DNA from: a virus
IMG/VR virus record: IMGVR_UViG_3300025646_000424
Coordinates: 1-22,354 of that record
Reading direction: 5' to 3' (one strand)
Length of the DNA: 22,354 nt
The number at the start of each line of letters is the position of its first letter. Positions within the stretch are counted from its first letter, which is position 1. This document shows, one piece after another, positions 12,082-14,716 of this stretch. The translations under genes and the position numbers were made by a program. The notes beneath the pieces were generated by a model. It saw only the letters and a list, made by a program, of their open reading frames with translations. It ran no database searches and was not told the DNA's origin.

Positions 12082-12160
12082 ATGAGCAGCGGAGGTCCAC
12101 ACTTCGTATAAGTCTCACCCCTCCCATGCCTCTCGTAGAAGCACAAACAGGGAGGGCTCT
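12082..12160 (+). ncRNA. Candidate small RNA with two competing folds
   Basis: This segment separates its promoter from tRNA-Arg by about 80 bases, whereas the neighbouring tRNA promoters sit 8-14 bases from their tRNAs. CCCCTCCC (12118-12125) can pair with either GGAGG (12091-12095, enclosing an ACTT/AAGT hairpin) or GGGAGGG (12150-12156, enclosing a GC-c-TCT hairpin). GAGC at the start can also pair with GCTC at the end. No reading frame or T-loop is present. It may be an independent small RNA released when tRNA-Arg is processed, or a leader. Seen by eye only. Confidence 0.4.
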
Positions 12161-12543: not shown

Positions 12544-12665
12544 ATAGTCCCAGCGACACCGTTGGTAACGGCTATGCAGTGGTGGTGCCACGCGGTCCAG
12601 AAGGAGATTAATCTCTGAGGTAGGTGTATCAAAACTTAAGGTTCGAATCCTTATGCTGGGACTAT
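12544..12665 (+). ncRNA. tRNA-like RNA with an 11-pair closing stem and oversized middle
   Basis: ATAGTCCCAGC (12544-12554) pairs perfectly with GCTGGGACTAT (12655-12665). Just inside lies a good T arm, TAAGG-TTCGAAT-CCTTA (12637-12653), placed as in a tRNA with acceptor CCCAGCG/TGCTGGG and discriminator A (12549-12661). A D-arm-like CCG-TTGGTAA-CGG follows the 5-prime acceptor. The middle is about 65 bases instead of 22-35 and holds GTGG/CCAC and GAGA/TCTC hairpins; no 5-7-5 anticodon arm was found by eye. It could be a tRNA with a small insertion, a decayed tRNA, or a stable RNA using a tRNA end for processing. Confidence 0.5.
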
Positions 12666-12713: not shown

Positions 12714-12723
12714 TGTCTCATAT

Positions 12724-12795
12724 GCGGAGTTAGTTCAGCGGTAGAACGCTATCCTTCCAAGTTAGATGTCGTCGGTTCGATTCCGATACTCCGCT
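12724..12795 (+). tRNA. tRNA-Gly (TCC)
   Basis: Perfect acceptor GCGGAGT/ACTCCGC, D arm GTTC/GAAC, anticodon loop CTTCCAA (anticodon TCC, codon GGA), T arm GTCGG-TTCGATT-CCGAT, discriminator T. The anticodon stem CTATC/GTTAG has one T-T mismatch. A GAACC-TTTT-GGTTC hairpin (12798-12811) follows directly. Confidence 0.93.
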
Positions 12796-12815
12796 CTGAA
12801 CCTTTTGGTTCTTAT

Positions 12816-12887
12816 TCCACAATAGCTCAGCGGTAGAGTCGGTGACTGTTAATCACTTGGTCCCTGGTTCGAATCCAGGTTGTGGAG
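12816..12887 (+). tRNA. tRNA-Asn (GTT)
   Basis: Acceptor TCCACAA/TTGTGGA, D arm GCTC/GAGT, anticodon stem GGTGA/TCACT around CTGTTAA (anticodon GTT, codons AAC and AAT), T arm CCTGG-TTCGAAT-CCAGG, discriminator G. A perfect GTTGGTA/TACCAAC hairpin (12887-12905) begins at its last base. Confidence 0.95.
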
Positions 12888-12958
12888 TTGGTATTAATTA
12901 CCAACTTCTACTACGGGTATCTTCCGTAGCGTCGTAAGGGAAGGGCACCGTTCTTCCC
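12887..12958 (+). other. Three consecutive hairpins after tRNA-Asn
   Basis: GTTGGTA/TACCAAC (loop TTAAT), CTACGG/CCGTAG with a 7-base loop (12911-12929), and GGGAAG/CTTCCC with a 9-base loop (12938-12958). None is followed by a T-tract, so they are not ordinary terminators. The middle hairpin has anticodon-arm dimensions. With the tRNA-like piece that follows they may form one folded RNA. Confidence 0.4.
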
Positions 12959-12960
12959 AC

Positions 12961-13032
12961 CCTCTGGTAGTCTATTGGTAAGGACAGGCGGACAACGCAC
13001 TTGGAAACTAGGTTCGATTCCTAGACAGAGAC
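12961..13032 (+). pseudogene. Degenerate tRNA
   Basis: This 72-base stretch has the length of its tRNA-Gly and tRNA-Asn neighbours. It keeps a D arm (GTCT/GGAC, loop ATTGGTAA) and an exact T arm (CTAGG-TTCGATT-CCTAG). The acceptor pairs only over its five central bases (CTCTG/CAGAG), with mismatches at both ends. The anticodon region does not form a 5-pair stem and lacks T33, so no anticodon can be read. It is most simply a decaying tRNA. An alternative is a tRNA-like module serving as the end of a longer RNA that starts at the hairpins upstream. Confidence 0.55.
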
Positions 13033-13045
13033 ATAAGTATTTCAT

Positions 13046-13072
13046 AACTCACCTTGCAAAAGGTGAGTTTTT
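13046..13072 (+). terminator. Rho-independent terminator
   Basis: Ten-pair stem AACTCACCTT/AAGGTGAGTT with a GCAA tetraloop, then TTTC. It closes the tRNA-Gly/Asn transcript and is followed five bases later by a late promoter. Confidence 0.85.
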
Positions 13073-13076
13073 CTTG

Positions 13077-13084
13077 TATAAATA
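13077..13084 (+). promoter_or_regulatory. T4-type late promoter (TATAAATA)
   Basis: Exact T4 late octamer, directly after a terminator and 30 bases before the zinc ribbon gene. Confidence 0.65.
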
Positions 13085-13114
13085 ATAAGATCTAAAAATA
13101 CATCATGAGAAAAA

Positions 13115-13366
13115 ATGTTAAAGATAAGATGCAAAGAGTGTAATACTGAAGTTTCTGCACATCCTGGACAATCCAAATCATGTGGATGTCCAAATATGGC
13201 TACAATCAAGGGAGATAAAATATCTGCACTAGATTTGTCTAAGATAGTTATGTTGAATTCTTATATTCAAAAGGAATCTAACAGAGTTTTGACAAATGAG
13301 GATATTATGTGGCAAGAGGCAAGACGCCAAAGAAAAGTTCGTAAACTGGATTTCGAGATCAAATGA
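13115..13366 (+). CDS. Small zinc ribbon protein
   Basis: The 83-residue product starts MLKIRCKECNTEVSAHPG and has Cys6, Cys9 (CKEC) and two further Cys in SKSCGCPN, a four-Cys zinc ribbon within the first 27 residues. The remainder is helical and charged, ending RRQRKVRKLDFEIK. Zinc ribbons this small usually bind nucleic acid or another protein; no catalytic domain is attached. Its late promoter argues for a role late in infection. A short overlapping frame from 13105 stops after 12 codons and is not favoured. tRNA-Ser begins nine bases after its stop. Confidence 0.75.
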   Translation: MLKIRCKECNTEVSAHPGQSKSCGCPNMATIKGDKISALDLSKIVMLNSYIQKESNRVLTNEDIMWQEARRQRKVRKLDFEIK

Positions 13367-13375
13367 TCTATGGTT

Positions 13376-13458
13376 GGAAGATAGCACTGATGGTCGGTAA
13401 ATCGTCTTGAAAACGATGCCAGGGTAAAAACCTGATAGTTCGATTCTATTATCTTCCG
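13376..13458 (+). tRNA. tRNA-Ser (TGA)
   Basis: Class II: acceptor GGAAGAT/ATCTTCC, anticodon stem ATCGT/ACGAT around CTTGAAA (anticodon TGA, codon TCA), long variable arm CAGG/CCTG, T arm GATAG-TTCGATT-CTATT, discriminator G. It has no early promoter of its own and is probably read from the late promoter before the zinc ribbon gene. Confidence 0.94.
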
Positions 13459-13460
13459 TT

Positions 13461-13468
13461 TATAAATA
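13461..13468 (+). promoter_or_regulatory. T4-type late promoter (TATAAATA)
   Basis: Exact late octamer, three bases after tRNA-Ser and only 12 bases before the metalloprotease ATG. By T4 spacing the mRNA would have a leader of only a few bases and no ribosome site. Confidence 0.65.
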
Positions 13469-13480
13469 CATAAAAAACTC

Positions 13481-13852
13481 ATGAGATTTAAAGAGTTTCT
13501 ATCTGAATCAACGAAGATTCAGGTTAAAGATTTTATGCATTTTGTTAAAGATGAACTTGGTCTAGCATCTTTGCCGAAAGTTATTGTAATAGATGACCCA
13601 CAGTTTTCTATAGACAATAAAACATTCGGATGCTTTAATTTAGGTAGTGATGAGATAAAAGTTCAAACTGCACAAAGACATCCTTTGGATGTATATAGAA
13701 CTTTAGCTCATGAACTTGTTCATTATCATCAAAAGCAAAGTGGAAAAGAGATGAGCGGTGAAGATGGATCAGAGTGTGAAAATGAGGCAAATTCTAGAGC
13801 AGGCGAAATATTAAGGAAGTATACTAAAACTATCAATAATCATGGATATTAG
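13481..13852 (+). CDS. HExxH zinc metalloprotease with capsid-targeting-like N-terminus
   Basis: The 123-residue protein has a zincin active site, H77-E-L-V-H81 (LAHELVHYHQ), and a downstream ENEAN with Glu102 as likely third zinc ligand: the gluzincin layout in minimal form. Its first residues, MRFKEFLSES, match the T4 internal-protein targeting peptide (MKTYQEFIAEA); L7-S-E9/Ser10 would be the prohead-protease cut. With the late promoter this suggests a protease packed in the head and injected. Similar small peptidases with ENEAN are, from memory, common in marine T4-like phages. The catalytic assignment is strong; packaging is inference. The substrate is unknown. Confidence 0.85.
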   Translation: MRFKEFLSESTKIQVKDFMHFVKDELGLASLPKVIVIDDPQFSIDNKTFGCFNLGSDEIKVQTAQRHPLDVYRTLAHELVHYHQKQSGKEMSGEDGSECENEANSRAGEILRKYTKTINNHGY

Positions 13853-13869
13853 GATTTCCTGACAATATA

Positions 13870-13897
13870 TTGACAATAAAGATGTTGATATTATAAT
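13870..13897 (+). promoter_or_regulatory. Sigma-70-type early promoter for the mini-gene cluster
   Basis: TTGACA, 16-base spacer, TATAAT. It starts 17 bases after the metalloprotease stop and precedes four overlapping small genes. Confidence 0.75.
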
Positions 13898-14482: not shown

Positions 14483-14716
14483 ATGAAGATGGATCAACAA
14501 CTTAAAGAACTCCAATCATTTACAGTCGAAGAGTTTCAAGAAAACTTTGACTATTTGATAGATAGAGTGGAAAATGGCGAGTCCTTTGTGATTACAAGTG
14601 AATATGGCAATGCAATGGTAGTCCCATATGATGAAGTTATTTCAGTTGTAAGTGAGTCAAAATTGGATACAGAAGAATTTATTAGAATTCACACTGACCA
14701 TGAAGAGGGGTGTTGA
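14483..14716 (+). CDS. Phd/YefM-like antitoxin, no toxin partner seen
   Basis: This 77-residue protein carries the pattern of the Phd/YefM antitoxin N-terminal domain: FTVEEFQENFDYLIDRVENGESFVI followed by a beta segment ending MVVPYDEV (known proteins have sequences like EFRKNLSELLDEVENGEPVIIT...VLVPYEE). The N-terminal part would bind DNA; the C-terminal part, which neutralises a toxin in true pairs, is short and acidic (SKLDTEEFIRIHTDHEE). No Doc-, YoeB- or PIN-type toxin is visible nearby. It may counter a host toxin or act as a repressor. A second in-frame ATG at 14489 is an alternative start. Its stop codon lies inside the -35 of the tRNA-Ile promoter. Confidence 0.75.
   Translation: MKMDQQLKELQSFTVEEFQENFDYLIDRVENGESFVITSEYGNAMVVPYDEVISVVSESKLDTEEFIRIHTDHEEGC

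Follow-up and report, generated by a model that had tools for sequence, protein, structure and literature searches.

The window analysed here, a 22,354-nucleotide stretch of viral DNA, is related to cyanophages S-SRM01, DSL-LC02 and B23, and its source virus is a freshwater T4-like cyanophage. A tRNA-Ser gene (13375-13459) is followed directly by the late promoter box TATAAATA, and the ATG of a small gene lies 12 nucleotides past the end of that box. The predicted product starts MRFKEFLSES and carries the motifs HELVH and ENEAN (Table 1). The preliminary description had recognised a minimal zinc protease, a capsid-targeting-like N-terminus and an exact late promoter at this spacing. Comparison with relatives establishes the gene, its catalytic motif, the N-terminal tag and the late box as sequence features, so these parts of the description stand.

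Table 1. Coordinates of features in and around the protease gene
Feature	Position	Strand	Basis
Intrinsic terminator-like hairpin closing the upstream tRNA unit	13046..13069	+	10-pair stem, T-rich tail
Late promoter box TATAAATA	13461..13468	+	Exact match; ATAAATA invariant in nine orthologues
Conserved block TAAAAAACTC; transcription predicted to begin here, giving a leader of 6-7 nt	13471..13480	+	Ten columns invariant, nine orthologues
Gene for 123-aa gluzincin-type metalloprotease (predicted)	13481..13852	+	ORF, motif, model, orthologue comparison
Peptide MRFKEFLSE, resembling a capsid-targeting sequence; gp21 predicted to cleave behind E9	13481..13507	+	Shared by B23 and 26 of 27 metagenomic loci
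HELVH, residues 77-81, two predicted zinc-ligand His and catalytic E78	13709..13723	+	H77, E78, H81 invariant
ENEAN (residues 100-104), with E100 or E102 as the expected third zinc ligand	13778..13792	+	Both invariant
Perfect sigma-70 promoter of the next, probably early, unit	13870..13897	+	12 of 12 consensus bases

The reading frame contains an in-frame TAA at 13463-13465, within the late box, and no ATG, GTG or TTG is found between this stop and 13481. The ATG at 13481 is therefore the unambiguous start, and any other start codon is ruled out. Six orthologue pairs give dN values of 0.05-0.10 against dS values of 0.95-2.0, which indicates a real gene under purifying selection. Together with conservation among orthologues, these ratios rule out a chance HExxH or a chance box.

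The consensus of cyanomyovirus late promoters is NATAAATA (PMC2984593). In nine orthologues, the positions from -19 to -13 (ATAAATA) and from -10 to -1 (TAAAAAACTC) are fully invariant, whereas every column from -60 to -21 varies. The arrangement ATAAATA-NN-TAAAAAACTC-ATG is thus unchanged in genes whose synonymous sites are highly diverged. Sites resembling TATAAATA are not over-represented across the whole window, so the late-box claim rests on comparative evidence. With respect to position, ATAAATA lies at most 40 nt upstream of 19, 51, 11, 20 and 18 ORFs in five genomes, versus 2, 0, 0, 0 and 1 for the control TATTTAT, an excess near ORF starts that puts the late box beyond chance. The exact box is absent next to the protease gene in B23 and in one metagenomic locus (L017).

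Transcription from T4 late promoters starts about six bases past the box, which predicts a leader of 6-7 nt for the protease mRNA. No Shine-Dalgarno-like stretch is present in the leader block TAAAAAACTC. The suggestion of a near-leaderless mRNA that lacks a ribosome site therefore holds in these respects, but the protease gene is not alone in having a short leader, a property that some other cyanophage late promoters have in common with it. In S-SRM01, the extended element ATAAATA-NN-TAAAAA is found at 12 of 98 boxes, compared with 5 of 2,971 anagram controls. The S-SRM01 elements lie mostly 13-17 nt ahead of genes whose starts look tail-fibre-like by eye. Across S-SRM01 (L040-L052) and the relatives G001 and G002, extended elements exceed the anagram controls and are located 12-17 nt from start codons; they are absent from B23 and G004. 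An exact copy of the element, ending CTCATG, precedes a different ORF in another locus (L229).

The flanks of the gene suggest where its transcription unit begins and ends. The hairpin upstream resembles an intrinsic terminator, with the caveat that matches to the terminator-like consensus are no commoner than in shuffles of the region. Scanning positions 12714 to 13461 gave no sigma-70-like site on the plus strand; this and the hairpin disfavour read-through from the upstream tRNA unit. With this putative terminator on the 5' side and the sigma-70 promoter on the 3' side, the protease gene seems to belong to a unit that is expressed only late. Late expression is thus supported at the level of sequence comparison.

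Several other elements were observed in the surrounding tRNA region. An abiF RNA (RF03085; 41 bits, gathering threshold 37) lies at 12120-12156 on the plus strand, within the tRNA array and just before tRNA-Arg; the family is named after abortive-infection genes. Positions 12546-12663 comprise a tRNA-like stretch, called neither by ARAGORN nor by Rfam, with acceptor-like ends TCCCAGC and GCTGGGA and the T-loop-like sequence GGTTCGAATCC. In B23, an annotated 110-nt 'tRNA-Undet' is located 5' of tRNA-Arg (L018, 9989-10098). A gene for a Phd-like antitoxin (phrog_375, E 3.7e-15) occupies 14483-14716, between tRNA-Pro and tRNA-Ile.

The predicted enzyme is best characterised by its motif residues. 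None of H77, E78, H81, E100 and E102 varies among 21 homologues, the most distant of which share about 40% identity, and all 21 sequences therefore have the HExxH and downstream Glu expected of gluzincins. The AlphaFold2 model has a mean pLDDT of 87.5. Foldseek ranks jannalysin, abylysin and IrrE at the top (probability 0.99, E 0.006, TM about 0.5), and no PDB match reached an E value of 0.001 or better. Pfam scores fall under the curated cut-offs for Peptidase_M78 (19.6 versus 22 bits), Tox-MPTase3 (20.1 versus 25) and MPTase-PolyVal (14 versus 27.5), and PHROG 87, 'metallo-protease', is matched at E 7.8e-5. A sequence search of the PDB gave no meaningful match, and the NCBIfam matches are all far under their family cut-offs. 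From the defence library, RmrA and CapP were set aside as weak matches (E 0.0018 and 0.017).

The best reading of the model is a minimal gluzincin with a predicted fold like that of minigluzincins and IrrE. The minigluzincins abylysin and jannalysin, selecase, and IrrE/PprI (M78) share this predicted fold, a size of about 110 residues, and an HExxH followed by a Glu in the next helix. However, identity to them is 13-20%, the M78 score is below its cut-off, and the cyanophage protein has no DNA-binding or repressor partner domain. From the motif and the model, we infer that it binds zinc and is proteolytically active.

The N-terminus of the protein conforms to M-x-[F/Y/L]-x-x-F-L-x-E-S in B23 and in 26 of the 27 metagenomic loci found by a second search, although two of these (L089 and L092) count as tagged only with a GTG start. 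This second list takes in nearly all of the 16 loci found by a first search. In Synechococcus phage B23 the protein begins MNYKQFLRE-STEKQIK. In the internal protein IPIII of T4, residues 4 and 7 are the main determinants of targeting, and residues 8 and 10 those of processing (PMC9026906). These correspond, with equal spacing, to F3, F6, L7 and E9, so the cyanophage tag is one residue shorter than that of T4. Both features of T4-type internal proteins, two aromatic positions and an [L/I]-x-E cleavage site, are therefore present. The tag class M-x(1-3)-[FYL]xxF[ILM]xE[ASG] is represented by 18 ORFs in five related genomes, compared with about 0.07 in shuffled N-termini, which places it beyond chance.

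Components needed for such processing are encoded by related phages. Genes for gp21 (PF03420) and gp23 (PF07068), which the window itself does not span, are found in four of five relatives; the remaining one is only a fragment. Near the N-terminus of gp23, similar candidate sites were seen by eye, such as FLSE/A in S-SRM01 and LME/S in G002 (the slash marks the predicted cut), so gp21 and a candidate gp23 site of this kind belong to the same phages. Head targeting of the protease is supported by these comparisons.

A protein that is not packed, but acts late in the dying cell, could also have such an N-terminus merely as part of its first helix. The model indeed draws residues 3-26 as a single helix, and the S-SRM01 homologue, gp257, keeps a late-type box and lacks the tag. 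However, the ten different residues that homologues have at the free position before E, with F, L and E-S fixed around it, suit a protease site rather than a general helix, and the N-terminus matches the genome-wide tag class. We regard the unpacked alternative as unlikely.

Similar N-termini were observed elsewhere. The ORF at 1293-1703 of the window has a second tag-like N-terminus, MSITFNEFILEA, with no late box nearby; its homologue in L067 reads MSITFNEFLCKLDEA, and the tag spacing is not kept. In G004, four consecutive genes (L038:8446-10334) are tagged (MKTYKQF...). One is a GNAT acetyltransferase by Pfam and another has a weak GNAT match, so this run is possibly an island of injected proteins.

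Viral contigs were also scanned for the canonical T4 tag, blind to the protease gene (at least 120 stretches). Among the matches listed, 126 of 130 begin a reading frame of at least 40 residues. Fifty representatives of the listed matches include, as positive controls, members of the PHROG families 'internal head protein' and 'internal virion protein', and also acetyltransferase, methyltransferase, glucosaminidase and ADP-ribosyltransferase-like matches. Two of the listed matches, L111 and L216, are zincins related to the protease, with which they align through RHPLD..RTL.HE.VHY.Q and ENEAN.

A cyanophage protein with an N-terminal tag is known from virions. The cytidylyltransferase T4-GC190 of S-SM1 begins MKKFSAFLNEA, and it was reported in purified S-SM1 virions by Sullivan et al. 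(PMC3037559). T4-GC190 is unrelated to the protease and, unlike it, near-universal in cyanomyoviruses. It shows that a tagged cyanophage protein is present in virions, and speaks for T4-GC190 only. For cyanophage capsid targeting, a literature search with subscription papers mostly outside its scope returned only a T4 review.

Relatives of the protease are rare. The gene is present in only three of 50,697 phage records, and its phage homologues include B23 gp332 and S-SRM01 gp257. No homologue was found on plasmids. A first scan of one genome for each of 84,980 species gave no relative, and a second scan gave a single one, untagged and on a contig binned as Bacteroidetes; a recent host origin was rejected on these results. 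The distant relatives L094 and L235 have no tag. In L094 (2001-2372), the part related to the protease is the C-terminal end of a larger ORF, whose long N-terminal extension resembles a nucleotidyltransferase by eye and is found in no other relative.

So rare a gene is more likely to be accessory than to serve head assembly, and its rarity bears on the possibility that a head-packed protease trims core or internal proteins during maturation instead of host targets after injection. The tag and late timing fit such a role, and the metallopeptidase domains of polyvalent proteins, which travel with DNA, have been proposed to process proteins in phage heads (PMC5512222). However, gp21 is present in those relatives whose sequence spans its locus, whereas the protease is rare, so head assembly does not generally need it. 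We consider trimming within the head distinctly unlikely.

Injection remains the preferred reading, and T4 provides its closest parallel. The small late head proteins IPI, IPII and IPIII, and Alt, are cut by gp21 and co-injected with DNA (PMC9026906, PMC12373910), and the IPs carry a short N-terminal tag with the same aromatic-xx-F-[I/L]-x-E spacing. The cyanophage protein differs in its cyanobacterial host, its shorter tag, its predicted rather than established packaging, and a mature part that is a predicted metalloprotease rather than an inhibitor or ADP-ribosyltransferase. Because injected IP1-3 each inhibit a different GmrSD enzyme (PMC12373910), the packed protein might likewise be a specific binder or inhibitor and not a protease, but this is very improbable, since binding alone would not require five motif residues to be invariant at such low identities.

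Metallopeptidases delivered with DNA by phages or plasmids are also exemplified by MPTase-PolyVal, ArdC and the N4 virion RNA polymerase (PMC5512222). Whereas polyvalent proteins combine several effector domains in one polypeptide, the protease is a single small domain with its own tag, and it scores well below the MPTase-PolyVal cut-off.

The events that we infer, from packaging and trimming to injection and the choice of substrate, would proceed as follows. The protease would be made late from its own short-leader promoter, and its first nine residues, acting as a T4-type capsid-targeting sequence, would bring it into the prohead core. There gp21 would remove MRFKEFLSE, and the trimmed enzyme would remain beside the DNA inside the head. 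When the virion next infects a cell, the enzyme would go in along with the genome and cut a specific host protein before phage gene expression, thereby serving as an accessory factor for counter-defence or takeover.

We consider this scheme as a whole, a late, stand-alone gluzincin that is packed by its tag, trimmed, injected and directed at a host protein, to be reasonably likely. A head-packing tag on a zinc protease suggests that the enzyme is probably injected with DNA and cuts its target at once; the target may, by analogy with injected T4 IP1-3 and DNA-borne metallopeptidase domains, be a host defence or regulatory protein. The preliminary description had proposed late expression, head targeting and injection. 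Comparison supports the first two, along with the predicted fold; injection and host-protein cutting would follow by analogy with T4.

The new element would be a stand-alone protease among the injected internal proteins of T4 type, themselves a known kind, and the comparisons strengthen this reading, short of proof. More tentatively, perhaps cyanophages carry an unrecognised set of capsid-targeted, injected enzymes, comprising acetyltransferases, ADP-ribosyltransferase-like and nucleotidyltransferase proteins, and a stand-alone protease encoded by this gene, which would disarm a cyanobacterial defence or regulator by proteolysis ahead of all phage gene expression. The first minutes of infection are when injected proteins act, and those of T4 specifically counter restriction. 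A tagged protease, if real, would work as a catalyst, and its substrate would lead to a defence or control protein not yet recognised in cyanobacteria. Such a tag may also provide a simple means of listing candidate injected effectors in cyanophage genomes.
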